Made by a program: the position numbers and the translations under genes. The notes beneath the pieces are model-generated. The model made no database searches and was not told the origin of the DNA. It worked only from the letters and a program-made list of their open reading frames with translations. DNA of 64,000 nt from Pseudomonadales bacterium (lineage in GTDB: Bacteria; Pseudomonadota; Gammaproteobacteria; Pseudomonadales; Azotimanducaceae), in NCBI GenBank assembly GCA_019090615.1, contig JAHRVQ010000033.1:1-64000 (forward strand), written 5' to 3'. Below, piece by piece: positions 22,613 through 62,541 of this stretch (position 1 is the stretch's first letter; every line of letters starts with the position of its first letter).

Positions 22613-23224
22613 CTACGCTAATTTTCTCTTTCGACCGAAGCCTAAGCCAGCAAAACCCAGGCCCATTAGTACCAGGGAAGAAGGTTCGGGCACTGAAGCT
22701 ACACCCAGGCTACCATTGAAGTTTATCGTTGAATTCCATTGAATCCGATTATTATTGAAACCGTTGAAATCGCTGATGGAAATACTATTCAAGGTTATCG
22801 TCACGTTGTCGATAGTATTCCCTATCAGGTCTATGCCGTTGAAACCAGGTCCCGAGTATCTAGCAGCTTCATCGGCTGGGGCAACAGAGACAAAAAAACC
22901 AAAAGCCCTTAGGGTTAAGCCATCATCCACGCCGTTTGTCGCTAGTGCCACAAAGTCTAAGAAATCCGCATCATTACCAGCATTGGCAGTAAAGGTAGTA
23001 CCCGCATCACCAAGCGCAAAATTCACGTCCTCGAATAACTCTTCACCAGACAAAAATGGGCCCAGTTGGATTCCAAGATGCAATCCAGAGAATGCCGGGT
23101 CATCTGCCAAAACAGCCGCAGCACTACTATGATTAACCGAAGCAATAACGGCAGCATGCGCTCCTCCCGATCCAATGCTTGCTGCAATCCCAAATGCGAT
23201 TAATGGCTTAAGAAATGATTTCAT
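22613..23224 (-). CDS. PEP-CTERM sorting domain protein
   Basis: A 203-residue exported protein with signal peptide MKSFLKPLIAFGIAASIGSG and AHA cleavage site. The body is rich in Asn/Gly/Ser with DADFLDFVALATNGVDDG and NSISISDFNGFNNN. The C-terminal signal is VPEPSSLVLMGLGFAGLGFG plus RKRKLA. It is a likely substrate of an exosortase and surface-exposed. AAGAAG lies upstream of the ATG. The gene is flanked by two direct R3 repeats, so it may have moved with, or been captured between, IS ends. Confidence 0.88.
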   Translation of the reverse strand: MKSFLKPLIAFGIAASIGSGGAHAAVIASVNHSSAAAVLADDPAFSGLHLGIQLGPFLSGEELFEDVNFALGDAGTTFTANAGNDADFLDFVALATNGVDDGLTLRAFGFFVSVAPADEAARYSGPGFNGIDLIGNTIDNVTITLNSISISDFNGFNNNRIQWNSTINFNGSLGVASVPEPSSLVLMGLGFAGLGFGRKRKLA

Positions 23225-27162: not shown

Positions 27163-27933
27163 ATGAAGAATAGTTTTCTATTCGCGGCCACCATGGCGGG
27201 AGTATTCGCCCTAAACCCAGCATCGACCATCGCCGATATCATTACACACTACGACATTGATTTTGAGTCTCCCACGCATACTGTTGGATTAGAACCGAAT
27301 GCCGGTTCTAATCCTGACCAGGTTACTTCTGTAAATGCGAACGGCCCAATCATCAGTAGCACCTTTGCGGGCAACACTAATCAGTCGTTACTATTTGATA
27401 GGGGCAACCCAGATAATAGCAAAAAGATTACTCTTGAAATGGGGCAAGGATATGACAACTACCAGTTGTCATATGATGTCTACACAGAAAATTTAGTGGA
27501 CTCATTATATGTCTTTACACTTCTCGCAGATACACCTTCTGTTAGAAACCTTAGTTTTCATGGTAGTTCTGGTATTGATGAGTTTCGTCCTTCTACCAGT
27601 GATTTTATAGCAAGCCAACCTTTCCTTGACGCTACAACCTATAATATTTTAATTGATTATGACCTTAAAGCATCTCAGTACTCGATCTGGGTAAATAATG
27701 TCATTTTCGGTTCAGCTGAATTTACGACGTCAGGAGATGACATCGAGTCATTTCGCTTTAGCTATTCGAACTGGCATGGAAGTGCCGGTATTGCTCCGGA
27801 TATCATCGTTCAGCTCGACAATATATTGGTCACAAGTCAAGTGGTACCAGAACCTGGCACCTTGTTTCTCCTATCTTGTGGGCTCGTCGGGTTATGCCTA
27901 AGACGTTTTGAGGGGGCGAAAAATGTGGGATAG
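27163..27933 (+). CDS. PEP-CTERM sorting domain protein
   Basis: A 256-residue exported protein: signal MKNSFLFAATMAGVFALNPA then STIADI. The body has alternating hydrophobic β-like segments (KKITLEMGQGYDNYQLSYDV, TYNILIDYDLKASQYSIWVN, IIVQLDNILVTSQ) consistent with a concanavalin-like β-sandwich. The C-terminal signal is VPEPGTLFLLSCGLVGLCL followed by RRFEGAK. AAAGGA lies 9 bp before the ATG. A long hairpin follows the gene. Confidence 0.88.
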   Translation: MKNSFLFAATMAGVFALNPASTIADIITHYDIDFESPTHTVGLEPNAGSNPDQVTSVNANGPIISSTFAGNTNQSLLFDRGNPDNSKKITLEMGQGYDNYQLSYDVYTENLVDSLYVFTLLADTPSVRNLSFHGSSGIDEFRPSTSDFIASQPFLDATTYNILIDYDLKASQYSIWVNNVIFGSAEFTTSGDDIESFRFSYSNWHGSAGIAPDIIVQLDNILVTSQVVPEPGTLFLLSCGLVGLCLRRFEGAKNVG

Positions 27934-31985: not shown

Positions 31986-32090
31986 ATCTCCATTAATTTG
32001 CTGCCTGGATATAGTCATCAAAAAGGCGCAGAAGTCGGCTATAACCCGCACAAATCAGGCCGAAACTCGGGTACTCCGCATACAGGCAAT
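31986..32090 (+). pseudogene. IS1380 transposase relic
   Basis: INLLPGYSHQKGAEVGYNPH then KSGRNSGTPHT can be read. This matches IKPIYGHQEGAEVGYNPHKP of the element at 1452-3148. About 30 codons remain. Confidence 0.65.
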
Positions 32091-32246: not shown

Positions 32247-32733
32247 CTGCTTGGCCGGCATAAATACTGGCTCACCACATTAACACTCGTGACCTCATAT
32301 TGAAATCAAAGATAATCTCGATATTTCGACTATCAACCAGCCATAGCCTCTATTCCAACGTGCATTATTCGTGTCTACCCACAACGCTTAAAGCTAGGCC
32401 GACTAGCCCGTTAATCCCCTTGTCGGTGGGCCTGGGCGACAACGCAGCCAAGGGTCAGCTGGCCCACATAACAAAAATATTGACGTACAGCACAGAACCT
32501 CTACATAGCTTCAACATGTAAATACCACACATACAGCGGCATTTTATGTCTAAGATTGCTCTACGGCTTCGAATTATTGCAGCGGGCACAAAATATTCAG
32601 CTATCGATTACATCCACTTTCAACGGCTTAACAGCTGTAACCGAAGTCGCTGCGGCAGCTGCTGAAATACTATCTAACCTTTGCCAAAATAATCTATATA
32701 ATGCGCCGCTTACCAGAAAATCGAGGACACGCC
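32247..32733. other. Region upstream of the helicase gene
   Basis: No gene. Bases 32480-32515 (TTGACGTACAGCACAGAACC then TCTACATAGCTTCAACA) resemble the right tip of R1 as at 3171-3200 in degraded form. Confidence 0.4.
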
Positions 32734-33984
32734 ATGAACGCGTTTACCAACTTAGGTCTTTCCGAATCACTCAATCAACCCCTGGAGCAACTGGGTTACA
32801 GCCAGGCAACAGAGATTCAGCAACTCGCAATTCCACCGATCATCGCGCGGCGCGATATCCTGGCTTCAGCCCAAACAGGGAGTGGTAAAACCGCCGCATT
32901 TGTATTGCCATTACTGGATCGACTGCAACAGAAAAAACCTGCTAAAGGTCGCCCCATCAGGGTATTATGCCTTGCCCCAACACGTGAACTGGCGCAACAA
33001 ATCGATGCCAATGTCGCGTCATATATCGGTGAATTACCGCTTCGTCATGCGGTGATTTATGGCGGCGTGCCAATCGACCAGCAAATTCGTAAAATTGGTA
33101 ATGGGGTTGACTTCCTGATTGCGACACCTGGGCGATTACTCGATTTGCTCACCCAAAAAAAGCTCGATCTCAGCCAGATAGAAACCCTGGTATTAGACGA
33201 AGCTGATCGTATGCTTGATCAGGGCTTTCAGGATCAGATCCAACAGATTCTCAATCATCTCCCCAAACAACGTCAAAACCTGTTGTTCTCGGCAACCTTT
33301 AACGCCAAAATCACCAGCTTTACTGATGGCCTGCTGCATAATCCCGTCATTGTACAAAGCCAACGTTTAAATAAAGCGGCAGACGCCGTCAAACTGATCA
33401 TTTACGAAGTAGAACAAAACGAAAAACCAGATATCATTTACTACCTGCTGGCTAACAATAAGCAGCAATGTTTAGTCTTCGCCCGTACACGCCGAAACGC
33501 TAACCTCGCTGATACTTACTTGCGAGACAAAGGCTTGAGCTGCGCTGCGATCCATAGTGATAAGTCTCAACAGCAGCGAACACAAACTTTACAGAAATTT
33601 AAAAACGGGGAAATCCAGATACTCATCGCCACGGACATTGCTGCAAGAGGACTGGATATTAAGCAACTACCATTGGTTATCAACTACGATATTCCACGTC
33701 ACGCTGAAGATTATGTGCACCGTATTGGTCGTACCGGCCGTGCTGGTATGCAAGGGGTTGCTATTTCATTAATGGGTGGCGACGAGCGTGGCAACGTCGC
33801 AGCCATCGAGAAACTTATTCAACAGAAGATATTCATTGCCGCTATTCCCTATATCGACGGGGAAAACAAATTCGAATACGATAATGAAATCATTGCTTCA
33901 GCTGGCAGCCATATTCAGGCACTTAAAGACGAGAAATCTAGTCGTGCTGCAAAACGCAAAAAATATACTAAACCCAATAAGTAG
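32734..33984 (+). CDS. rhlE: DEAD-box RNA helicase, RhlE-like
   Basis: A 416-residue DEAD-box helicase. The Q motif is FTNLGLSESLNQPLEQLGYS (Phe then GY-x-x-A-T-E-I-Q). Motif I is AQTGSGKT, Ia PTRELA, II VLDEADRML, III SAT, IV LVFAR, V ATDIAARGLD, VI HRIGRTGR. All are intact. A short basic tail (RAAKRKKYTKPNK) ends the protein, as in RhlE, which acts in ribosome assembly or RNA decay. ATG 32734 is chosen so that the Q motif sits in its usual place. No operon partner. Confidence 0.92.
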   Translation: MNAFTNLGLSESLNQPLEQLGYSQATEIQQLAIPPIIARRDILASAQTGSGKTAAFVLPLLDRLQQKKPAKGRPIRVLCLAPTRELAQQIDANVASYIGELPLRHAVIYGGVPIDQQIRKIGNGVDFLIATPGRLLDLLTQKKLDLSQIETLVLDEADRMLDQGFQDQIQQILNHLPKQRQNLLFSATFNAKITSFTDGLLHNPVIVQSQRLNKAADAVKLIIYEVEQNEKPDIIYYLLANNKQQCLVFARTRRNANLADTYLRDKGLSCAAIHSDKSQQQRTQTLQKFKNGEIQILIATDIAARGLDIKQLPLVINYDIPRHAEDYVHRIGRTGRAGMQGVAISLMGGDERGNVAAIEKLIQQKIFIAAIPYIDGENKFEYDNEIIASAGSHIQALKDEKSSRAAKRKKYTKPNK

Positions 33985-34061: not shown

Positions 34062-34691
34062 TCAGCCCATCACACTGACGATCAGCCTATCTCCCACAGA
34101 TGAATCTACAATGGTAGCTAAAACAATCGATGCATCTGAACCCACCTGCCTATCTGCATATTTCGCAATCGAGGTAAATTCACTCAAACTAATAACTGCC
34201 TCAGCCCTAACAGTTATAAGCAAGCCTTTTAGCCTGAGAAAATCAGCAGGACAGTCGTTAATTGCATTTTGGACTGCCCTGGATGCCCGATTACCCCCAA
34301 CTGCCCTGCCTATACCCACACTCGGTTGATCCATGTAAGCCATTACTGATCGAATATCTACATCGTCAACATATGGACACCCGTGAAGAAGATCGCCAAT
34401 TTCCTGGATCATGTGCGAGTACATCTGCAATGCTCGCTGGGTTTTAATCTGCCACCAATACCCTATGCTACGATCTTTTGCGCGGCTTACCACCTGTTGA
34501 AATTCAGCCTTTATCGACTTATCTTCAGTCCAGTCAACGGTGTCCAGTAAGAAATTCACCTCGGTAAAATTTTCAAAATCAATGTCTGTTGGACTAGCAA
34601 CCTGATGAAAATATATTTCTCGAAAATTCAACTTTGTGGTCGCCGAATCAGCACCATTGGTAAAAACACTGACTTTTGCCGATTTTTTCAT
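34062..34691 (-). CDS. FtsZ-like protein lacking the GTP-binding domain
   Basis: A 209-residue protein whose residues about 95-209 align with the C-terminal domain of FtsZ. DVDIRSVMAYM matches D-F-A-D-V-R-T-V-M-x-x-M. GIGRAVGGNRASRAVQNAI matches G-x-G-x-A-x-G-x-x-R-A...A-I. GLLITV, ISLSEFTSIA and SIVLATIVDSSVGDRLIVSV match the following β-strands. Residues about 45-95 correspond to the segment around the tubulin signature, but GGGTGTG is replaced by TVDWTEDKS. The N-terminal nucleotide-binding half is absent. It cannot bind GTP in the usual way and may cap or modulate FtsZ. It stands alone. It may also be a decayed ftsZ paralogue, but the frame is open. Confidence 0.75.
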   Translation of the reverse strand: MKKSAKVSVFTNGADSATTKLNFREIYFHQVASPTDIDFENFTEVNFLLDTVDWTEDKSIKAEFQQVVSRAKDRSIGYWWQIKTQRALQMYSHMIQEIGDLLHGCPYVDDVDIRSVMAYMDQPSVGIGRAVGGNRASRAVQNAINDCPADFLRLKGLLITVRAEAVISLSEFTSIAKYADRQVGSDASIVLATIVDSSVGDRLIVSVMG

Positions 34692-34778: not shown

Positions 34779-35396
34779 CTACTTGCGACGGCGCATAAAG
34801 CCAAGACTTAGTAGTGCAGAGCTGAACAAAATCAAGCTTGATGGTCCTGGTACGGCAGTAGCCGTATAAAACTGGAAAAACTCATTAGCGTTACCAGTGC
34901 CATCATCTTCCCGTATCTGAACCTTGTTAAAACCTGCCGTGCTACTAAAGCCAATAAACTGCACTGTATCAAATTGGGCCGCAGAAGTGGTAAAACTGGT
35001 TGCGCCAACGGCAGTGCTGTCCAGGAAAAATTCTAGATTGAAGATACTAACGATGTTGTCATCCAGGTAATCCATGGCAAAGGCGGTTTGGGTACCCGAA
35101 AACAGTAGGTCAAAGTTTTCGTCACCATTAAGTACGTATTCGGTGCCGACCATGGTGCTATTGAAGTCTTGATAGCCGTGAGTACCCGTGATGTCGCCGA
35201 CGGTGCCAATACCGGAGGCGTTATCCAGACTGAGGGCACCACTTGTGCTAACAAGATTCGCATTTGTTCCCAGCGGCGTGGTGTTAAAAACCTCAGCAGT
35301 TAGATTAAAATCGGCAGTGTCCGTTGACACCAGAATCGCGGCATTACTGGACAGCGCGGACAGGGCAATTATCAGGGTAATAATCAATCTATTCAT
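34779..35396 (-). CDS. PEP-CTERM-like protein, VPGP variant
   Basis: A 205-residue exported protein. ATG 35396 gives signal peptide MNRLIITLIIALSALSSNAA. The body is β-rich with Asn/Thr/Ser (NLVSTSGALSLDNASGIGTV, MVGTEYVLNGDENFDLLFSG). It ends VPGPSSLILFSSALLSLGFM then RRRK. The PEP triplet is replaced by PGP, a variant seen in PEP-CTERM relatives and possibly sorted by a different exosortase. An upstream in-frame extension of 25 codons is not used because it has no signal peptide. Confidence 0.8.
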   Translation of the reverse strand: MNRLIITLIIALSALSSNAAILVSTDTADFNLTAEVFNTTPLGTNANLVSTSGALSLDNASGIGTVGDITGTHGYQDFNSTMVGTEYVLNGDENFDLLFSGTQTAFAMDYLDDNIVSIFNLEFFLDSTAVGATSFTTSAAQFDTVQFIGFSSTAGFNKVQIREDDGTGNANEFFQFYTATAVPGPSSLILFSSALLSLGFMRRRK

Positions 35397-35907
35397 TTGG
35401 AAATAAGTCTCTATATAAGGGGCTGAGGTATTAATACAATCACTCCAAAACCTAGGCAATATTTCGGCCAAAATATCTTTCTAATTAAAAACCTCCAACT
35501 TTTCAATAGGTTGCATTTCCATAATGTTATTTTTTTAGCTCAGCGGAAAGGACCTGTAAAAAATACCGACAGTTATTGAGATATCGAAACCCTGTTGTTC
35601 CAGGTTGTGATAATTAGAGCCAGATACAAATCAGCATGCAATTTAAAGGTGATTGGCTGACTTATATCCGTTATGGCAGAATTTAAGTTATCGCCACGGT
35701 ATTTAACTTTGATAGACAAATTCAACCTACAGCCCCTGAAGCACTTAAATTGGTCGAAGTGTCAGGGTATAAGAAAGAAAAATGGGCGGCTCATGTAACT
35801 CAATTCGAAGCGGCTAAATCGTTCCAATTACCGTAACTGGCCTGAACGAGTCACCAACTGAAGGAATAGAAATAGTCGCCTTGTCGCTGAGGCCAGCCTC
35901 TCTGGAA
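35397..35907. other. Intergenic region with a possible coding remnant
   Basis: Bases 35687-35836 form a 49-codon frame without a start codon, reading VIATVFNFDRQIQPTAPEAL then KLVEVSGYKKEKWAAHVTQF. The composition is protein-like, but I cannot name a family. The rest is featureless. Confidence 0.3.
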
Positions 35908-38106: not shown

Positions 38107-39750
38107 ATGCCGACACTTCCTTTGCTAAAAAAAATACTTACCCTATGCTGCTTTGGGTTGCTTGCGAACTTAGCTTGCGCACAACAAACTCGACCAGTGC
38201 TACCTGTAGTACTACCTGAAAAATTACCCGCCATCTCCTTACTAGAACTGCGTGGTACAAAAGCCGTTATGGCGGGTCAACTGATAATCATCAAACAGAT
38301 TATCATCACCGGTAATCACGTCCTGGCCCCCAGTTTGCTGGCGGCGATTACAGCGGCCTATACCCATCGCGAAATCGGCTACAATGACCTGCTTAATTTA
38401 CGCGACGAAGTAACTCTCGCCTATGTTAATCGGGGCTTTGTTACCTCTGGGGCCATCGTGCCTGACCAGGATGTTGCCGATGGGGTACTGGAAATTCACA
38501 TTCAGGAAGGTCACCTTGGTGCAATCAATATATCAGCAGACAGGTTTCGCCCTGAATATATTCAATCAAGACTGTCATTAAATGCAGGCGACGTGGTCAA
38601 TGTTAAGCTGCTGGAAACAAAGATTCGTCAGCTACAACAAGATTTTCGCATCGACAAGGTGGCCTTAACCTTAGTGCCAACCGAGCAAGGTAATACCGAT
38701 GTAAAGGTGCAAATTGCAGAAGCCGCAGCTTTTTCTCTTCAGGCTGGTTTCGATAATACAACCTCTCCCGCAGTCGGTTCGGATACCCTACGCCTCAACC
38801 TGCAGCACGCCAACCTGTTGGGTTATGGCGATGTTATTTCGTTTCAGTCAGTACATACCCCAGGCCTGGCAGCCCAGGAACTATATTATACCTTGCCAGT
38901 AACGGCTCATCATGGGCAATTGTTAATCGAGGCTCGTAACAGCGACAGTGACATTGTTGACGACCTGTTTTCCGGCCTGGATATCGAAGGCGCCTCTGAG
39001 TCTTATAGTCTGGGCTTCAAACAACCGTTTCAGCTAGCCAATGAAGATCAATTGATTCTGACCCTTAAAGGAGAATTTAAACGCGCAGCCTCTTCATTAT
39101 TAGGCCAGGGTTTCTCCTTTTCGCCAGGTGCAGATGATGGCGAGACACGGGTTGCGGCATTGCGATTTTCTGCTGGCTTAAGCAGGCGACGGCTAAACTA
39201 CATCTACTCATTGCATTCCACCTTATCTGTTGGTACAAAGCTACTCGATGCGACAGCGCATTCTGGCGACACACCCGATAGCCAGTTCGTCAACTGGCTA
39301 GTTCAGGCGCAGTGGGCAAGGCGTTTCACTTCAACTCAGATCGAACTTCGCAGCCGGGTTGATCTACAGGTAACAGATTCCTCTCTGCTCGGCCTTGAAC
39401 AATTCGTTCTAGGTGGAAGCACATCAGTACGCGGCTACCGAGAAAATTTACTGGCTCGGGATGCAGGCATCACAGCCTCATTTGAATTACGTTATCCACT
39501 GTATACAACAAATACCTTAAGCCTCGATGGTGCAGTATTTCTGGATGCAGGTTATGGCCGAAATGTGCATCGGGCACCGGCAGCAGAAACCTTGACATCG
39601 GTTGGCATCGGATTCCATATACAAATTTATCAATATCTCAATCTCTCTATCGAATGGGCTGAAGCACTGCAGGATGTGGGGGTGATCGGCGAGCACAATC
39701 GCCAGGACGATGGTGTTCATTTTGGCCTGAATTTTGGGTGGGCGTTATGA
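38107..39750 (+). CDS. TpsB-type outer-membrane transporter (ShlB/FhaC family)
   Basis: A 547-residue two-partner-secretion transporter. Signal peptide residues about 1-25 (CLANLACAQQ-like end). POTRA domains lie at about 60-200 (IIIKQIIITGNHVLAPSLLA, LEIHIQEGHLGAINISADRF, LNAGDVVNVKLLETKIRQLQ). The 16-strand barrel ends with LGGSTSVRGYRENLLARDAG, the conserved VRGY tetrad of the L6 loop near residue 440. It should export the TpsA protein encoded next, whose ATG overlaps this stop codon (ATGA). Confidence 0.9.
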   Translation: MPTLPLLKKILTLCCFGLLANLACAQQTRPVLPVVLPEKLPAISLLELRGTKAVMAGQLIIIKQIIITGNHVLAPSLLAAITAAYTHREIGYNDLLNLRDEVTLAYVNRGFVTSGAIVPDQDVADGVLEIHIQEGHLGAINISADRFRPEYIQSRLSLNAGDVVNVKLLETKIRQLQQDFRIDKVALTLVPTEQGNTDVKVQIAEAAAFSLQAGFDNTTSPAVGSDTLRLNLQHANLLGYGDVISFQSVHTPGLAAQELYYTLPVTAHHGQLLIEARNSDSDIVDDLFSGLDIEGASESYSLGFKQPFQLANEDQLILTLKGEFKRAASSLLGQGFSFSPGADDGETRVAALRFSAGLSRRRLNYIYSLHSTLSVGTKLLDATAHSGDTPDSQFVNWLVQAQWARRFTSTQIELRSRVDLQVTDSSLLGLEQFVLGGSTSVRGYRENLLARDAGITASFELRYPLYTTNTLSLDGAVFLDAGYGRNVHRAPAAETLTSVGIGFHIQIYQYLNLSIEWAEALQDVGVIGEHNRQDDGVHFGLNFGWAL

Positions 39751-42700
39751 ATCGTTTAATTTTACTGCTGTGTTGCTTTTGCATGGCAACTTTGCGGGCA
39801 GATCCGGTACGTGATGGTAGTATTGGTCCAACAACGACCATCCAGCCGACTGGGCCAGAATTTTTGATCGACGCCTCCATGGGTGCCCGTCGGGGCCCAG
39901 CATTGTTTCATAGTTTTAGCGAATTCAGTCTCGATAGAGACCAGACAGCAACATTTACCGGCGATACCTCTGTCGATTTTGTTATTTCCCGCGTATCGAG
40001 CAATACCCCCTCTCTGATCAACGGCAAACTAGTCTCTGCAATCCCAGGCGCGAGTTTTTTCCTGCTCAACCCAAACGGCATTTTGATATCGAAAGATGCT
40101 CAGCTAGATGTGGATGGCAGCGTCTTTTTAAGCAGCGCTGACTATCTGGCATTTGATAATGGTGAGATATTCACATCAGATTTCGGTAGCTTGCCGACCA
40201 TCGACATTTTGACACCAACTTCGTTTGGCTTTCTGGATGCTGAAATCGGTAATATTAGCCTCAATGGCACTATACTTGAACTGCCAGACAGCACCTCACT
40301 TTCGTTGGTAGGCGGTAATATAAATATCGAATCTGCATCGATAAGCCTTACAAGCGGCGAGGTTCAACTTGTGGCTGTAGCTTCTGCAATAGAAGTCCCT
40401 ACACTTGCAACAGCGCCACCTACACTGGGCCAGCCAGGCATAGGCTCGACTGGTCAACTGGCAGATATTGTCCTGTTAGATTCGACCATCGATGTAAGCG
40501 GTGATGCTGCAGGTACCGTTCGTATTCAGGCAGGCCGACTGGATATCCAGGATAGCAATATAAGTTCCGTTGGTATCAACGCTACAACACTGGCACCTGT
40601 CGCCATCAATATTATTGCCATCGATTCAATCAAGCTGGCGGGTGAAACAGAAATTTCAGCTTCAACCGAAGGCAATGCAACTGGCGGCGACATAGTTATT
40701 ATGACGGACCAATTTAAACTGCTGGATGATGCAGAAATTATCAGTGACACAGCTGGGGCTGGTGCCGCCGGATCAGTTGCCATTGTTGCAGGTGAGGTAC
40801 TCATAGCCGGTGATGCAGAAATCGCTAGCGATGTCGAGACTGGCGCCACAGGCAATGGTGGTGCAGTCACCATTACAGCCGCCAATATCCTGTTACAGGG
40901 CGCACCCGAGATTAGCACCGATACTGACCCGATGAGTTCCGGCCAGGGTGGCAACATCATATTGACCGCCGCCGATGCGATTGTGCTGGATATAGACTTT
41001 GAGGCCGGCGAAGAAGCAGGCGTCTTATCCAATACAGAAGGCAGTGGCCCTGCAGGCTCAATTCAAATTCAGACACCGCTCCTGTCTATCCGCGGCGGAA
41101 CAATTAACGCCATGAGCGATGGCGCAAGTTTAGGCGGCAGCATCATTGTTGAGGCCAACGATGTGTTGCTAACAGACCATGCCAGTATCAGCGTTGAGAG
41201 CTCGGGGACTGGCGATGCAGGCGACATTCTAATCACCGGCAAAGGAAGCGTAAAACTAGCACCGACCACCAGTATTAGCGCCAAAGCAACAATCGCTGAT
41301 GGCGGCAATTTATTGCTCACAGGTTATTCGCAAATCATCTCCCAGTTTGCCGATGTGACCGCGAATGTAGGTGCTGGTATCGGCGGCAATATTAATTTAT
41401 CTGCAACCCAGGTTGTTGCTGATAATGCAGCGATTATTGCCCAGGCTGGTGCCGGACAAGGCGGCGCAATCAATATAGATGGCGATTTTTTCTTCTCTGA
41501 TAGCAGCCTTGTAAGCGCCTCTGCGGGACCGGCAGGCATTTCTGGAACCGTAGCAATTAACGCCCCTGAAGTAGATTTAAGCGCCAGCCTTGAAGCGCTG
41601 CCGACGGCATACCGAGACCCCACTAATTTGTTTCGTCAGGCCTGTGCGGCAAGAACCGGCGTTGATGCCACAAGCAGTTTTGTGATTACTGAAAAAACCT
41701 TAGTGCCATCTACCGTTGAGGGCATACCGCTTGCCCGAGTCGAGCAGATAATATCTGCCGACCTTGTAATAGCGCGCCATGCGGCTCAGACCAAACCAGC
41801 CCAACAGGCACTTGATCTATTATTACTCGCACAGACAACGCTGCAATATGCTGAACCGAACACCAACACGATCTACGGTCTTGTTCATGTAGCGCGTAGC
41901 TATACACTTGTTGCTAAACGACTCGAAACATCACCGCGGCATCCATTATTGCTGAATGCCGCTAACCTGCTGCAGCGCGCCCGTGGTTTAAGCAAAGCAA
42001 TCGACAATCTACCTATTCAGTCGTATGTATTGGGTAACCTGGCAGACCTATATGCCGCTAACCAGCAACTGGATGAAGCATTATATCTGGCTCGTAGCGC
42101 AAGCAATTTGGCACAAGAGGCTGAAACACCAGCCAGCGAGTATCGTTGGTTGGCATTGCAAGGACAAATCCTTACCGCACAGCGGCGACCTACTGAGGCA
42201 ATCGATGCCTACCGTCGCTCAATTAGTGTGATTGAGAATTCCAGCCAGTCAGCACTGGTTAGCGTTGATGTCAGTGGCGACTACTTCTATCAGCAAATAG
42301 TGCCTGTTTATCATGCGCTGGTTGCATTGTTATTAGACCAGGCAAAGTCGGCCAGTTCAGCCGCAGCACAGACGATGTTTCATGAAGCAAGACAAGTGAT
42401 GGAGTTATTTAAGGCCGCTGAACTACGTGATTATTACCAGGATGAGTGCGTTGCAGAGAGTCAGTCTAGCATAATGAATCTTGACGAGGTTGCGAGCGGA
42501 GTGGCAGTAATCTATCCCATTGTACTGGCCAACCAGCTTGAACTGCTGGTTGGCATTGATGGCCGACTACAGCACTACAGTGTCAATGTAACCGCTAAAG
42601 CAATTGCTGACCAGGTTGCCGAGTTACGTGAAATACTAGAAAACCTCGAAGACGATTACCTTGATATCAGCCAGGCGTTGTATGATTGGGTTGTTAGACC

Positions 42701-43472
42701 CTATGCCAGCGCACTTACTGCAGTGGATACCCTGGTCTTCGTTAATGATGGACCATTACGCGGTTTATCGGTTGCAGCATTACACGACGGCGATGAATTT
42801 TTAGTGCAGCGCTTTGCTTTGGCCGTGGCACCAGGGCTCAATATGGTGGACCCAAAACCATTGCCTGAAGCACCGCCGGTAGTATTTCTAGCAGGCCTCA
42901 GCCAGGCGGTTGACGGCTTCTCCGCATTGCCTGGTGTGCCAGGAGAATTAAATGCAGTGGCATCCGCCATGTCAGGTGAAGTAGTACTTAATTCTTCTTT
43001 TGCGCTGGATCAACTACGATTGGGGCTGGTTGAGAATAACCCATCCATGGTGCATCTGGCGACCCATGCAAGTTTCGGCAATGATTCTAGCGCCAGTTTT
43101 ATCCTCACCTGGGATGGTCAACTTAGCGTTAATAAACTGTCTGAATACGTACTTGCCAATCGCTTTCAGCAACGCCCACTTGACCTGTTAGTATTAAGTG
43201 CCTGTGAAACTGCAGTGGGAGATTCACGTTCCGCACTGGGTCTGGCAGGCATTGCCGTGCGCGCTGGAGCGAAAAGCGCTATGGGCTCTCTGTGGACTAT
43301 TTCAGATGAAGCCACTGCTTTGTTAATGGGTGAATTTTATTACAATTTGATACATCGCTCACTATCGAGATCAGAATCGTTACGCCAGGCTCAATTGACA
43401 CTGCTCAACGACCCTGCTTTCAACCACCCCTTTTTCTGGTCGCCATTTTTGTTAATCAATAATTGGTTATAG
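39747..43472 (+). CDS. TpsA-type secreted protein with C-terminal CHAT domain
   Basis: A 1241-residue exoprotein. Signal peptide residues 1-18. TPS/haemagglutination-activity domain at about 20-250: PTGPEFLIDASMGARRGPAL, LFHSFSEFSL, SRVSSNTPSLINGKL and FLLNPNGILISKDAQLDVDG. A Gly/Ala-rich β-helix extends to about 620. TPR-like helices occupy about 640-870 (LADLYAANQQLDEALYLARS). A CHAT (caspase-like) domain spans about 930-1240 with catalytic His in MVHLATHASFGND (about 1104) and Cys in LSACETAVGD (about 1151). Export by the overlapping TpsB is likely. The protein would be a surface-delivered cysteine protease. Confidence 0.9.
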   Translation: MNRLILLLCCFCMATLRADPVRDGSIGPTTTIQPTGPEFLIDASMGARRGPALFHSFSEFSLDRDQTATFTGDTSVDFVISRVSSNTPSLINGKLVSAIPGASFFLLNPNGILISKDAQLDVDGSVFLSSADYLAFDNGEIFTSDFGSLPTIDILTPTSFGFLDAEIGNISLNGTILELPDSTSLSLVGGNINIESASISLTSGEVQLVAVASAIEVPTLATAPPTLGQPGIGSTGQLADIVLLDSTIDVSGDAAGTVRIQAGRLDIQDSNISSVGINATTLAPVAINIIAIDSIKLAGETEISASTEGNATGGDIVIMTDQFKLLDDAEIISDTAGAGAAGSVAIVAGEVLIAGDAEIASDVETGATGNGGAVTITAANILLQGAPEISTDTDPMSSGQGGNIILTAADAIVLDIDFEAGEEAGVLSNTEGSGPAGSIQIQTPLLSIRGGTINAMSDGASLGGSIIVEANDVLLTDHASISVESSGTGDAGDILITGKGSVKLAPTTSISAKATIADGGNLLLTGYSQIISQFADVTANVGAGIGGNINLSATQVVADNAAIIAQAGAGQGGAINIDGDFFFSDSSLVSASAGPAGISGTVAINAPEVDLSASLEALPTAYRDPTNLFRQACAARTGVDATSSFVITEKTLVPSTVEGIPLARVEQIISADLVIARHAAQTKPAQQALDLLLLAQTTLQYAEPNTNTIYGLVHVARSYTLVAKRLETSPRHPLLLNAANLLQRARGLSKAIDNLPIQSYVLGNLADLYAANQQLDEALYLARSASNLAQEAETPASEYRWLALQGQILTAQRRPTEAIDAYRRSISVIENSSQSALVSVDVSGDYFYQQIVPVYHALVALLLDQAKSASSAAAQTMFHEARQVMELFKAAELRDYYQDECVAESQSSIMNLDEVASGVAVIYPIVLANQLELLVGIDGRLQHYSVNVTAKAIADQVAELREILENLEDDYLDISQALYDWVVRPYASALTAVDTLVFVNDGPLRGLSVAALHDGDEFLVQRFALAVAPGLNMVDPKPLPEAPPVVFLAGLSQAVDGFSALPGVPGELNAVASAMSGEVVLNSSFALDQLRLGLVENNPSMVHLATHASFGNDSSASFILTWDGQLSVNKLSEYVLANRFQQRPLDLLVLSACETAVGDSRSALGLAGIAVRAGAKSAMGSLWTISDEATALLMGEFYYNLIHRSLSRSESLRQAQLTLLNDPAFNHPFFWSPFLLINNWL

Positions 43473-56646: not shown

Positions 56647-59600
56647 GTGTTAATCAGGGTATTACGGTTCAAACCAGTTAGTTTACAGTTTTTCTTCATT
56701 ACCCTGCGCTGCAATCTCTTGCTGACCAGAGTATTGCCCGGCCTAATCCTCTTATTGACTAATTTCTCGGTCACGGCTGCTAGCTGCGGATTGATTGACA
56801 GTCGTTATGCCCTATATTCAAATTCTAGCCTTAGCCTGGCTAGCAATATAAAAATCAATAGTAAAAACATAGTCGACGGCACAACCGTAGGCACTGCTGG
56901 CCTTAACCCAGACGGAACCGTCACTACCAGCAGCATCAACATTCCAGGCCTGGACCCAGCAAGTTTTCCTTCAAACACTGCGACGACTGACCTGGATGAA
57001 GCTAATTCACCGCTCAATGCCAACACGGCAGTATTTTATGATCAGGTTAACATTGGCACTCGCGAAGAATTTCGTTTCACCGGTAGCGGCCCCTTTCATA
57101 TCAACACCTTAACCGTTGAAGATGATGCTGATGTATATTTTTCTGCTGGCACCTATTATATCAACACACTTATTTTGCGGGATACAACCCATCTACGCCT
57201 CGATGCTGGTCCGGTCAACTTACATATCGGCAATAGCCTCGATTTAAACGACCGCAAGATCCATATTAACGAACATGACGGTGGCGAACCTGAAGACCTA
57301 AGGATTTATCTGCATACCAATGCCAGCATTACCAATAGCGGCAGTAACGATGACAACAAAATAAAAGCCATTATTATCGGGGTAAATAATGGTCCGATTA
57401 AATTTGGCCCAAAATTATCTTTCGACGGCGTTATCCTAAGTGACAACGACATCACAATAGATACAAAATCCCGTTTCGACTTAAACTCATCAATGCAATC
57501 AGTGATTGGTGCAATTTCCACCTGTGATACTGCTGGCTCGGTTGTCGCTAGTATTTCAAGCATCAGCGTTGTCCCAGGTGCCAATGCAATAGTTTCTATT
57601 ACCCTGTCTGGCACATCAGCTTCGGATACTGTATTCAGTTATACAACCCAGGATGGTACCGCGACCGCGGGCAGTGATTACACCGCCAAAACAGGATCAA
57701 TAACAATTAGTGCCGGTAATACCAGCGCCCAAATCACGATTAACACCAGTGCCACTGCACAGACTGGCGAGGCATTCAGCATCAATTTGTCCAGTAGCGA
57801 TGTGAGCCTTAATAACACCTCAGCCACGGCAACTTTCAGTGCGCCAGCAGGTGCCTGCAGCTTAATCGATAGCCGTTACGGGCTTTATTCCACTGTCGGG
57901 CTTAACCTCGGTTCTGGCATCACTATCAACAACAATGGGGTCGCTAGTGGAAACGCTATGGGCACTTCAGGTTTAGACCCAAATGGATCAATAATTACCA
58001 GCAGTATTAGCGTCCCAGGTTTTGACCCAGTAAATTTTCCCGCCAATAACTCAACCACAAATCTGGACGATACAAATTCTCCTCTGACGGATAACAGCGC
58101 AGTATTTTATGATCTAGTGCGAGTCAACGATAACAAAGAATTGCAGTTTACCGGGTCCGGCCCGTTCCATATCAACACATTAATTGTTGAGGATGACGCT
58201 GATGTGTATTTTTCTGCAGGTATCTATTATATCGACACATTAATTCTCCGCGATACTACCCATATCCGCCTGAATAACGGACCTGTGCAGCTACATATCG
58301 GCAGCGAGTTAGACTTAGACGATCGCAAAATTCATATCAATGAACATGATGGTGGCGAAGCCGATGACCTGCGAATTTATCTCCATGAAAATGCCACCGT
58401 AACCGATAGCGGCAGCAACGATGACAATAAAATAAAGGCCATTTTTATCGGTAACAACAACGGCCCGATTCAATTCGGCAGCCAATTAAAATTTGAAGGT
58501 TTAATTATCAGCGAAAATACCATCACGGTTGGCAACGATGCCGATCTTGAGCTGGATAGTACCTTAAAGACCGCCATTGACGCAGTCACCACCTGTGACG
58601 CTGCAGGTACCTTAAGCTTGAGCATTTCCAGCGTTAGTATGATGCCAGGAAACGATGCAACATTTTCACTGGCACTATCTGCAACCACCGGCACGGATAT
58701 AGTCATTAATTACGCCACCCAGGATGGCACCGCAACAGCGGGCAGTGATTACACCAGTGACAGTGGTACGGTGACAATTGCCGCAGGCAGCCTAACAACC
58801 TTAATCAGTATCAACACCAGCAGTACAGCAACAGTTGGCGAAAATTTCAGCATTAATCTAACCAGCAACGATGTCAGCCTGAGTGTTGCAACAGCCTTAG
58901 CATCTTTCACCGGTGCCGCCGGTGCCTGCGGCTTGTTAAATAGCACCTATGGTCTCTATTCGACCACTAGCCTTGCGCTGGGCACCAACACTACAATTAA
59001 CACGATCGCCGTCACCAGTGGTACAACTTCTGGTTCAGTTGGCCTCGACGTCAGTGCTGCCATTACCGCAACAAGTATTAGTATACCGGGCCTTGATCCC
59101 AGCGGCTTTCCCACAAATAGCTCAACCACAGATATCGATGAAACCAGCTCGCCGATTGACGGCACAACCGAAAAGTTTTTTGATGAGGTAGTTGTCAACG
59201 ACAATCAAGTGTTGACTTTCAACGGCAACGGCCCCTTCCATATTAAGACCCTAACCATTGAAGATGACGCAGATGTTTATTTATCCGCTGGCACCTACTA
59301 CATCGACACATTAATTTTACGCGACACCACCCACATTCGCTTAAGTAACGCGCCAGTCGCGCTGCATATTGGCACCGAGCTGAACCTGGCAGATCAGAAA
59401 ATTCATATCAATGAACACGAAGCCGGCAGCCCGGAAAACCTCTTAATCTATCTGCATGCCAATGCTGTGATTACAGGTGGCGCGAGCAATACAGAGGCCA
59501 AAATCCGTGCAGTTATTGTTGGCGTAGACAATGGCGTAATTGATTTTGGTGACAAGCTAAAATTTTCCGGCATTATTCTTAGCGAAAACGACTTAACATT

Positions 59601-62541
59601 CGGCAGCGATGCAGCATTCACCCTGAACACCGCAAATCAAAATGCCATCAACAATCGTTCCACCTGTCTAATCACTGATTTCAGCACATTTTGTGGCGCT
59701 GTTTTTACTGCCGGCCTGCAAATCTCTAACAGCGATGGAACAGTCGAGTTCGAAGCAAGTGGCCAACTACTTGCCAACCCAAGCAGTGTGCTTATTACCC
59801 CGTCAATCAACAAAAATCACAGTAGTAGCTGCGATACGACTCAATGTACAGCCGGTGAAAACCAGTCTGAGGCGCCAATTTTCCCGACCTTTTTGACCTC
59901 CAGCACCACTACTGACCTGGATATTTCCAGCGACCAGACCATTGGTAATAGCGGTGTAAACGCTTATCGAACAGTGACAGTGCGCAGTAATCAAAGTTTA
60001 GATTTTTCAACCGCTCAAAGCAGTTATATAATCGACACACTAACCGTAGAAAATAGCGGCACAGTCAATTTTGTCGCTGGCGATTATTATATCGCTGACC
60101 TTAAAACTGACAATAGCGATTTAACGCTGAATGTCGTTGGCCCAGGTACAGTGCGGATTTATTCCACCGCTGATATTAAGTTTAAAAACAATGCCATCGT
60201 TAATTCTCCTTCAGCTGCCAATGCTGGCACAGCTTCTGTATTATATGTGCATTCACAAAACAATCTCAAAATCGAATCTGGCGCTACGATCACCGGTTTT
60301 TTAGTCGCCCAAAACGATTTTGAGGCAAAGGGTTCATCTACTGTATTCGGCGCAGTATCTGCCGGTGAAAAAATAAAACTAAAAGATACTGCCACCCTGA
60401 CCTATATCAACAACGAAATTACCAGTACCGATTTCGGTGCCTCTTGCAGTCAAATTGATCCAGCCAATAGCCTTAACTATTTCACCTTAAACCATGATGG
60501 CAATGGAATTAATTGCGTATCTGAAACACTGGTAATAACCGCCCGTAAATCCAGCGGTGATATTCAGGATAGCTACGCAGAAACGGTAACCCTTGACACC
60601 CAATCAAGCAAAGGCAGCTGGAGTCTGGTAGCTGGCAACGGTACCTTTTTAGATGCCACCAATAACGATGGCCTGGCCAGTTATAGCTATAGCGACCTGG
60701 ATGACGGTATAGCCAGTTTTGGCCTCAACTACTCTGAAGGTGCCGCGAGCCTGGACGTCGACATTTTTCAGACTTCAAATTCAACCCTGCGGGACGATGA
60801 TTCAGAAGCTACTTTAACCTTTAACCCGAGCGGTTTCAGTTTTACTCAATCAGTCCTGACCAACCCGCCACCAACACCGATTAACGATCCTTTAATCACT
60901 CAAACAGCAGGCAGTGAATTTAATTTACATATCACGGCCTTCGGTCAAACTGCCGATGACCCTGACTGCGGTATTATTGAAGCTTATACCTCGGATCAGA
61001 GCATTGCCTTCTGGGCTGATTACGAGAATCCAACTACCGGCACCTTAACACCCACAATTAACAGCACGATTGTTGCAACTAACCAGTCATCGGCTGCCGG
61101 ACAGACTATTAACTTTTCCAACGGTCAGGCAATGGTGCTGGTCAAGTACAAAGATGTGGGCCAGATTCAACTGCATGGCCAGGATTTAGCCCAGACAGGC
61201 ATAACAGGTGCCACCAATATTTTTCTTGTTAAACCCTCGGACCTGATCATCACTGAAATAAAAACAGCGCTGGGTAGCAGTAATCCGGGTGCAACATCCG
61301 CAACCGGCAACGGTTTTGTTGCTGCTGGCGAGGCCTTCACCGTTGTCGTTGAAGCCCGCGACGCAGAGAATGCAGTAACGCCGAATTTTGGCCGAGAACT
61401 GGTGCCAGAGGGTATTGAGATTACGTCAACGGCGCTAGTAATACCGGCCGGCGGTATCAACGGCTCTGCCAATGATGGCAAAATTGGCAATAGTAGCGCT
61501 TTTTCAGCTACAGCAATCGCCGGTGTCTTTGCAGGCAATAATTTTAGCTTTGATGAGTACGGCATTATCACCCTGCAGGCAAGTATTGCCGATGATGACT
61601 ACCTCGGCGGCGGTGAAATATCAGGCAGCGTATCTGGCAATGTTGGGCGATTTTACCCCGCCAGTTTTACCTTGGATTCAAGCAGCGTTGTCGCCGCCTG
61701 TAATAACTTCACCTATATGGATCAGCCAGAAATCATGATCAGCTATAACCTACAGGCGCTCGATACACTGGGCGCTCAACTGAGCAATTATGATGCCGGT
61801 TTATTGGGTAGCAGCGCTGTCGCCATACCAGTTTTTCACATTGAAAACGACAACCAGGGCGTTGATCTAAGTAGCCGACTTGCAGTGACATCTAGCACCT
61901 GGGTTAACGGCAGTTATCAACTGACTAACATCAATCAACAATTTAATCGCGCCACCAGCCCAGACGGCCCTTTCACATCGCTTCAGCTGGGTGTCTCCAT
62001 CACTGATAACCTGGACACGCTGAAAATTACCAATGCCAACATGAACCCCAGCACCAGCAATGATTGTACAGCTATCTCTGACTGCGATACCAGAGCCTTA
62101 TCCGGTACGACCAACCTGCATTACGGCCGAATGGTATTAAGCAATGCTTTTGGCCCAGAAACCGAACCACTCGCCATACCACTAAGCACGCAATATTTTA
62201 CTGAAAATGGCAATTTTGTGGAGAATACAAATGACGATTGTAGCGCCTATATTAATAGCGCTAGCACACTGAGCAATTATCAGGATGGTTTGGGTAGCCT
62301 AAGTATTATATCACCCACCAGCTTCGAATTTGTTGTTAACGGGTCTGCTACGCCAGGCAACAGAATAACCCTGTCAGCACCTGGGGCGAATAATACCGGC
62401 AGTGTTGACATAAGCTACAGCGTACCCGCATGGCTTAAATATAATTGGCAGGGCAGTGGCGATGAAGATCCCCAAGCGACCGCTTCCTATGGCCATTTTC
62501 GCGGTCATGACAAGGTCATCTATTGGCGCGAAGTCTTCTAG
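56647..62541 (+). CDS. MshQ-like surface protein with internal repeats
   Basis: A 1964-residue exported protein starting with GTG. A hydrophobic segment (about 28-45) serves as signal. Three repeat units start with a Cys at residues 47, 404 and 761. The first two are exactly 357 residues long. Each has a polymer-forming β-helix part (FTGSGPFHINTLTVEDDADV, RKIHINEHDGGEPEDLRIYL), and the first two end in a Calx-β domain (FSYTTQDGTATAGSDYTAKT). A fourth, diverged copy of the β-helix part follows at about 1010-1260. The last 700 residues match the DUF6701/MshQ C-terminus, ending with a characteristic YNWQGSGDEDPQATASYGHF. MshQ proteins are linked to type IV (MSHA) pili. No other pilus gene is here. 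Confidence 0.85.
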   Translation: MLIRVLRFKPVSLQFFFITLRCNLLLTRVLPGLILLLTNFSVTAASCGLIDSRYALYSNSSLSLASNIKINSKNIVDGTTVGTAGLNPDGTVTTSSINIPGLDPASFPSNTATTDLDEANSPLNANTAVFYDQVNIGTREEFRFTGSGPFHINTLTVEDDADVYFSAGTYYINTLILRDTTHLRLDAGPVNLHIGNSLDLNDRKIHINEHDGGEPEDLRIYLHTNASITNSGSNDDNKIKAIIIGVNNGPIKFGPKLSFDGVILSDNDITIDTKSRFDLNSSMQSVIGAISTCDTAGSVVASISSISVVPGANAIVSITLSGTSASDTVFSYTTQDGTATAGSDYTAKTGSITISAGNTSAQITINTSATAQTGEAFSINLSSSDVSLNNTSATATFSAPAGACSLIDSRYGLYSTVGLNLGSGITINNNGVASGNAMGTSGLDPNGSIITSSISVPGFDPVNFPANNSTTNLDDTNSPLTDNSAVFYDLVRVNDNKELQFTGSGPFHINTLIVEDDADVYFSAGIYYIDTLILRDTTHIRLNNGPVQLHIGSELDLDDRKIHINEHDGGEADDLRIYLHENATVTDSGSNDDNKIKAIFIGNNNGPIQFGSQLKFEGLIISENTITVGNDADLELDSTLKTAIDAVTTCDAAGTLSLSISSVSMMPGNDATFSLALSATTGTDIVINYATQDGTATAGSDYTSDSGTVTIAAGSLTTLISINTSSTATVGENFSINLTSNDVSLSVATALASFTGAAGACGLLNSTYGLYSTTSLALGTNTTINTIAVTSGTTSGSVGLDVSAAITATSISIPGLDPSGFPTNSSTTDIDETSSPIDGTTEKFFDEVVVNDNQVLTFNGNGPFHIKTLTIEDDADVYLSAGTYYIDTLILRDTTHIRLSNAPVALHIGTELNLADQKIHINEHEAGSPENLLIYLHANAVITGGASNTEAKIRAVIVGVDNGVIDFGDKLKFSGIILSENDLTFGSDAAFTLNTANQNAINNRSTCLITDFSTFCGAVFTAGLQISNSDGTVEFEASGQLLANPSSVLITPSINKNHSSSCDTTQCTAGENQSEAPIFPTFLTSSTTTDLDISSDQTIGNSGVNAYRTVTVRSNQSLDFSTAQSSYIIDTLTVENSGTVNFVAGDYYIADLKTDNSDLTLNVVGPGTVRIYSTADIKFKNNAIVNSPSAANAGTASVLYVHSQNNLKIESGATITGFLVAQNDFEAKGSSTVFGAVSAGEKIKLKDTATLTYINNEITSTDFGASCSQIDPANSLNYFTLNHDGNGINCVSETLVITARKSSGDIQDSYAETVTLDTQSSKGSWSLVAGNGTFLDATNNDGLASYSYSDLDDGIASFGLNYSEGAASLDVDIFQTSNSTLRDDDSEATLTFNPSGFSFTQSVLTNPPPTPINDPLITQTAGSEFNLHITAFGQTADDPDCGIIEAYTSDQSIAFWADYENPTTGTLTPTINSTIVATNQSSAAGQTINFSNGQAMVLVKYKDVGQIQLHGQDLAQTGITGATNIFLVKPSDLIITEIKTALGSSNPGATSATGNGFVAAGEAFTVVVEARDAENAVTPNFGRELVPEGIEITSTALVIPAGGINGSANDGKIGNSSAFSATAIAGVFAGNNFSFDEYGIITLQASIADDDYLGGGEISGSVSGNVGRFYPASFTLDSSSVVAACNNFTYMDQPEIMISYNLQALDTLGAQLSNYDAGLLGSSAVAIPVFHIENDNQGVDLSSRLAVTSSTWVNGSYQLTNINQQFNRATSPDGPFTSLQLGVSITDNLDTLKITNANMNPSTSNDCTAISDCDTRALSGTTNLHYGRMVLSNAFGPETEPLAIPLSTQYFTENGNFVENTNDDCSAYINSASTLSNYQDGLGSLSIISPTSFEFVVNGSATPGNRITLSAPGANNTGSVDISYSVPAWLKYNWQGSGDEDPQATASYGHFRGHDKVIYWREVF
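56785..57855 (+). repeat. MshQ-like repeat unit 1 (357 codons)
   Basis: It runs from the Cys codon TGC at 56785 to the base before the equivalent Cys codon at 57856, 1071 bp. The end of the unit is a Calx-β domain. Confidence 0.75.
57856..58926 (+). repeat. MshQ-like repeat unit 2 (357 codons)
   Basis: 1071 bp, exactly the length of unit 1. Segments such as FTGSGPFHINTLIVEDDADV and GSNDDNKIKAIFIGNNNG are nearly identical to unit 1. Confidence 0.75.
58927..59690 (+). repeat. MshQ-like repeat unit 3, without Calx-β part
   Basis: It begins CGLLNSTYGLYSTTSLALG and retains DDADVYLSAGTYYIDTLILR and RDTTHIRLSNAPVALHIGTE. It stops after the β-helix segment, so the Calx-β part is missing. Confidence 0.65.

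Follow-up and report, generated by a model that had tools for sequence, protein, structure and literature searches.

A diverged FtsZ C-terminal domain without its GTPase domain in an orphan open reading frame of a Pseudomonadales bacterium

FtsZ (TIGR00065; PF00091 plus PF12327; e.g., P. aeruginosa 1ofu and M. tuberculosis 1rq2) shares helix H7, the T7 Asp pair, and the entire C-terminal domain, as judged from sequence and predicted fold, with the product of an open reading frame (ORF) in a member of the Azotimanducaceae. Unlike FtsZ, the ORF protein has no GTPase domain, GGGTGTG motif, T7 Asn, linker, or conserved C-terminal peptide. MciZ of B. subtilis, a short peptide that is not an FtsZ relative, caps FtsZ filaments and provides a functional analogy only, as a small GTPase-less protein acting on FtsZ ends. 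The FtsZ surface bound by MciZ is the bottom face (PMC8936486), whereas the ORF protein would itself bring a bottom face and would meet the opposite end. The non-canonical relatives FtsZl-1 and FtsZl-2 (Makarova and Koonin 2010, PMC2875224) stand beside a true FtsZ, as does the ORF, but keep the GTP-binding loop that the ORF has lost; FtsZl-1, with no recognizable FtsZ C-terminal domain, is the reverse of the ORF protein.

The ORF lies at 34,062-34,691 on the minus strand of the window, the 64,000-nucleotide stretch analyzed here (GCA_019090615.1, contig JAHRVQ010000033.1), with its ATG at 34,689-34,691 and its stop at 34,062-34,064; the frame is open over 209 codons and has no internal stop. 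The protein is an FtsZ C-terminal domain without the GTPase, and its similarity to FtsZ is far beyond chance. Pfam FtsZ_C (PF12327) matched residues 125-207 (34,071-34,319, minus strand) with an E value of 6.8e-9 and 36.4 bits, passing the gathering cut-off of 27; P. aeruginosa FtsZ 1ofu was the best PDB match in phmmer (residues 95-208; 1.3e-8), and residues 90-208 were covered at 56.5 bits by a profile of FtsZ from relatives. These results bear out the original prediction of an FtsZ C-terminal domain in residues 95-209, and the motifs it named (DVDIRSVM, GIGRAVGGNRA, GLLITV, and SIVLATIV) are all there. The counterpart of FtsZ begins somewhat earlier, with residues 85-209 (34,065-34,439, minus strand) corresponding to helix H7, the T7 loop, and the C-terminal (GTPase-activating) domain; the T7 (synergy) loop PYVDDVDI was placed by alignment at residues 106-113 (34,353-34,376, minus strand). 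The frame stops straight after the last strand of the C-terminal domain, leaving neither a linker nor a conserved C-terminal peptide for FtsA/ZipA. The score against the FtsZ equivalog TIGR00065 (31.8 bits) fell below the curated cut-off of 295. When AlphaFold2 was given 39 FtsZ rows, the C-terminal domain was modeled confidently (pLDDT mostly >80 over residues 121-209) and superimposed on 6ym9_B and 2q1x_A with an rmsd of 1.2-1.3 over 89 columns, and the PDB matches listed were all FtsZ; as the model was fed an FtsZ alignment, this is a consistency check and not independent proof of the FtsZ fold. The loss of GGGTGTG was likewise correctly predicted, and the whole PF00091 GTPase domain is absent from the ORF in a Pfam search. 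Judging from the sequence, no recognizable GTP-binding loop is left, so the protein cannot bind or hydrolyze GTP in the manner of FtsZ.

The remaining domain had been described as well kept, which proved overstated. The ORF is 36% identical to the FtsZ of its host and about 37% identical at most to FtsZ, carries two small deletions, and retains 19 of 35 near-invariant columns (≥90% conserved among 39 diverse FtsZ). In the domain tree, its branch measured 1.67 substitutions per site versus ≤0.66 for the most divergent FtsZ, ~2.5 times the longest ordinary FtsZ branch sampled, and its placement was not resolved. The structural glycines G104, G126, G128, and G132 are kept and the SPLL motif is lost. 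In T7 (Y107-V-D109-D-V-D112), the Asp pair is kept, the Asn is replaced by Tyr107 so that the NxDxxD pattern is not satisfied, and Phe-Ala has become Asp-Val. In S. aureus FtsZ, D210 and D213, which correspond to D109 and D112 of the ORF, hold the catalytic water (PMC8936486).

The original prediction also held that the N-terminal half was missing. This is correct for the GTPase domain, but 84 residues of unassigned sequence (34,440-34,691, minus strand) precede H7. Residues 1-84 had no relative in the domain and profile libraries searched, and their profile and pairwise similarity to FtsZ N domains stayed at the shuffle level. Their codon usage is host-like, resembling that of local genes, and was equaled by just 2% of non-coding segments. 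No frameshifted remains of a GTPase domain were found in any frame of the ORF flanks (six-frame profile search, tblastn). AlphaFold2 did not resolve the region, either from the single sequence or when aligned rows were supplied for the C-terminal part. The single-sequence model did place strand-strand-strand-helix-strand ahead of H7, which would suit a shrunken FtsZ that keeps a reduced, GTPase-domain-derived Rossmann-like N domain, but at a pLDDT of 45; the pattern changed when the C-terminal alignment was supplied, and no FtsZ appeared among the PDB matches listed for the single-sequence model. Together with the shuffle-level similarity, this makes a shrunken GTPase domain improbable, and we set this candidate aside. 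Homologues of the N-terminal part were also considered among three marginal matches in the family (E 0.009-0.09); the two that were checked were sited away from FtsZ-like genes, and no credible match was obtained across 206 family genomes.

The host genome carries one complete ftsZ on another contig, flanked as usual by ftsA-like and lpxC-like genes (named by eye from ORF translations), and the 36% identity to the ORF extends over residues 92-208. PF00091 matched only this real ftsZ in the host genome and nothing near the ORF. Identity between the two at codon positions 1/2/3 was 52/59/33%, and 4 of 20 four-fold sites were identical, indicating saturation; neutral decay from the host ftsZ to the observed amino-acid identity would need only about 0.53 substitutions per site. 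A recent decaying duplicate of the host ftsZ was rejected on account of the 33% third-position identity and the saturated four-fold sites. On the reading favored below, the H7-T7-C-terminal half would derive from an FtsZ copy other than a recent duplicate of the host ftsZ. The codon-position data are still compatible with a decaying foreign ftsZ, which would have arrived with its silent sites already saturated, and the asymmetry among codon positions was consequently dropped as proof of selection on the truncated form, since a foreign source copy gives the same pattern.

The absence of homologues with the same truncation had been named in advance as counting against a functional protein, and none was found in the data searched. 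At a threshold of 3e-15, a level that ordinary FtsZ did not reach, searches of overlapping samples from the order (390 genomes), the class (369), and the phylum (398) matched the whole ORF protein only in its own genome. Each of 58 relatives had one ordinary ftsZ or nothing. Across the family, a second Pfam FtsZ_C copy was confined to the host genome and three others, which proved to hold either a full-length ftsZ in tandem or partial matches below the threshold, and nothing of this kind. The viral, phage, and plasmid collections and GTDB contigs yielded no whole-length match, and matches were to the FtsZ-like C-terminal part only, belonging to full-length FtsZ wherever the frame was checked; the contig-collection scans used short exact peptide patterns, which are insensitive and may miss a distant homologue. 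One viral FtsZ_C frame without GGGTGTG was discarded as a counterpart, its frame being cut by the contig end. As a separate observation, one family member carries a tandem pair of ftsZ-like open frames, both full-length and separated by about 1.1 kb.

We tentatively favor a lineage-specific, strongly diverged FtsZ-derived protein, in which the H7-T7-C-terminal half stands behind a short N-terminus that is unrelated or has diverged beyond recognition. The main rival is a decaying, functionless ftsZ fragment, either acquired from another source or left over from an old second copy, that has lost its 5' end and is still open by chance, which we consider rather unlikely though a serious contender. 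For comparison, neutral decay was simulated from 39 FtsZ genes down to the number of conserved columns that the ORF retains. This required 0.31 substitutions per site, a divergence at which the chance of meeting no stop in 209 codons was ~5%, indels not counted. Hydrophobic residues occupied 89% of the hydrophobic columns in the ORF versus 79% in the simulations, and 4.9% of runs reached 89%, so the pattern lies above 95% of them. Both results speak against a decaying fragment, as do the gene-like codon usage of the N-terminal part and a GC content that is host-like and close to that of the window. On the other hand, the FtsZ profile score of the ORF was not above that of the neutral runs, 73% of which scored at least as high, and conserved columns had been lost about evenly from one conservation class to the next, much as a neutrally decaying foreign copy would lose them. 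The low retention of near-invariant columns, the distribution limited to a single genome, and a transposase remnant 2 kb away, which marks decaying DNA nearby, also fit such a fragment. No good Shine-Dalgarno sequence precedes the ATG. On balance, the codon usage, stop-free frame, and hydrophobic pattern incline us toward a genuine protein that is, or until recently was, under structural constraint, and the ORF is probably translated and folded.

FtsZ is a common target of the division inhibitors of phages and of chromosomal toxins, and this lends some appeal to a fast-evolving mobile-element or phage gene that mimics the FtsZ C-terminal domain to disturb host division. An orphan with a very long branch, in a 64-kb window that contains transposases, would suit such an origin. 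Yet no phage genes were recognized near the ORF or in its flanks, no PHROGs match was obtained, the viral, phage, and plasmid collections held no whole-length match, and the GC content again resembles that of the host; we regard this origin as quite improbable.

If the favored reading of a diverged FtsZ-derived protein holds, a functional partner of the true FtsZ, for example one with a filament-capping or regulatory role as first proposed, is possible. The ORF protein presents only one conserved surface for binding, the FtsZ bottom face, and has no membrane tether. T7, H8, S9, and H10 are elements of the four contact regions of FtsZ, and mutations in the bottom interface are toxic, unlike those in the top interface (PMC8936486). 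A molecule with a bottom face only, such as the ORF protein, would by analogy resemble a top-interface mutant. Should the ORF protein act, the likeliest route might be weak binding of the bottom face (T7 Asp pair, H8, S9, and H10) to a host FtsZ subunit at its nucleotide face; as a subunit that cannot be extended, the protein would then modulate filament length. We rate this specific mechanism as improbable. In T7, the replacement of Asn by Tyr and of Phe by Asp argues against normal docking onto FtsZ. Capping through the normal longitudinal face appears disfavored because the T7 Asn is Tyr in the ORF and N208L, at the same position (Tyr107) in S. aureus FtsZ, abolishes assembly (PMC8936486). 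It is highly doubtful that the protein could serve as a stand-alone FtsZ GTPase-activating domain, whose T7 Asp pair would enter the nucleotide pocket of host FtsZ and lead to hydrolysis or a filament end, never to extension; if true, this would be an FtsZ-derived, GTP-free regulator of FtsZ. If real, the ORF would represent a natural single-domain FtsZ without a GTPase, which could show what the C-terminal domain does alone and would bear on a possible regulation of live FtsZ by dead paralogues. As a remnant, the ORF would be ordinary, and that reading stays with just one genome known.

The genes around the ORF give no functional hint because congeners that have the downstream helicase carry other genes beside it. 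This convergent neighbor, a DEAD-box RNA helicase (32,701-33,984, plus strand), is kept in three congeners with 83-89% identity and is followed there by different genes; its downstream flank in the congeners is unlike that of the window, and an empty site could not be read. Two congeners have relatives of the MMPL-family transporter, but with different neighbors. Upstream of the ORF, a 230-aa protein (34,779-35,471, minus strand) ends in a PEP-CTERM-like tail (VPGPSSLILFSSALLSLGFMRRRK), and it is probably functionally unrelated to the ORF; the 87-bp gap between the two has no terminator-like site, and no intrinsic terminator-like site was found between 33,900 and 35,600.

Several other features of the window were recorded. 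The short transposase remnant (31,989-32,084, plus strand) aligns with residues 85-116 of the DDE transposase encoded at 1,535-2,830, with 62.5% identity. PEP-CTERM-like sorting tails occur in the proteins at 571-1,251, 22,613-23,224, 27,163-27,933, and 34,779-35,471. A two-partner secretion pair (38,107-43,472, plus strand) consists of a ShlB/FhaC-type transporter followed by a 1,244-aa TPS-domain protein that also has TPR repeats and, at its C terminus, a CHAT (caspase-like) domain. Farther along, 56,647-62,541 (plus strand) encodes a 1,964-aa protein that combines four DUF7305 stretches with two Calx-beta domains and has a DUF6701 at its C terminus.
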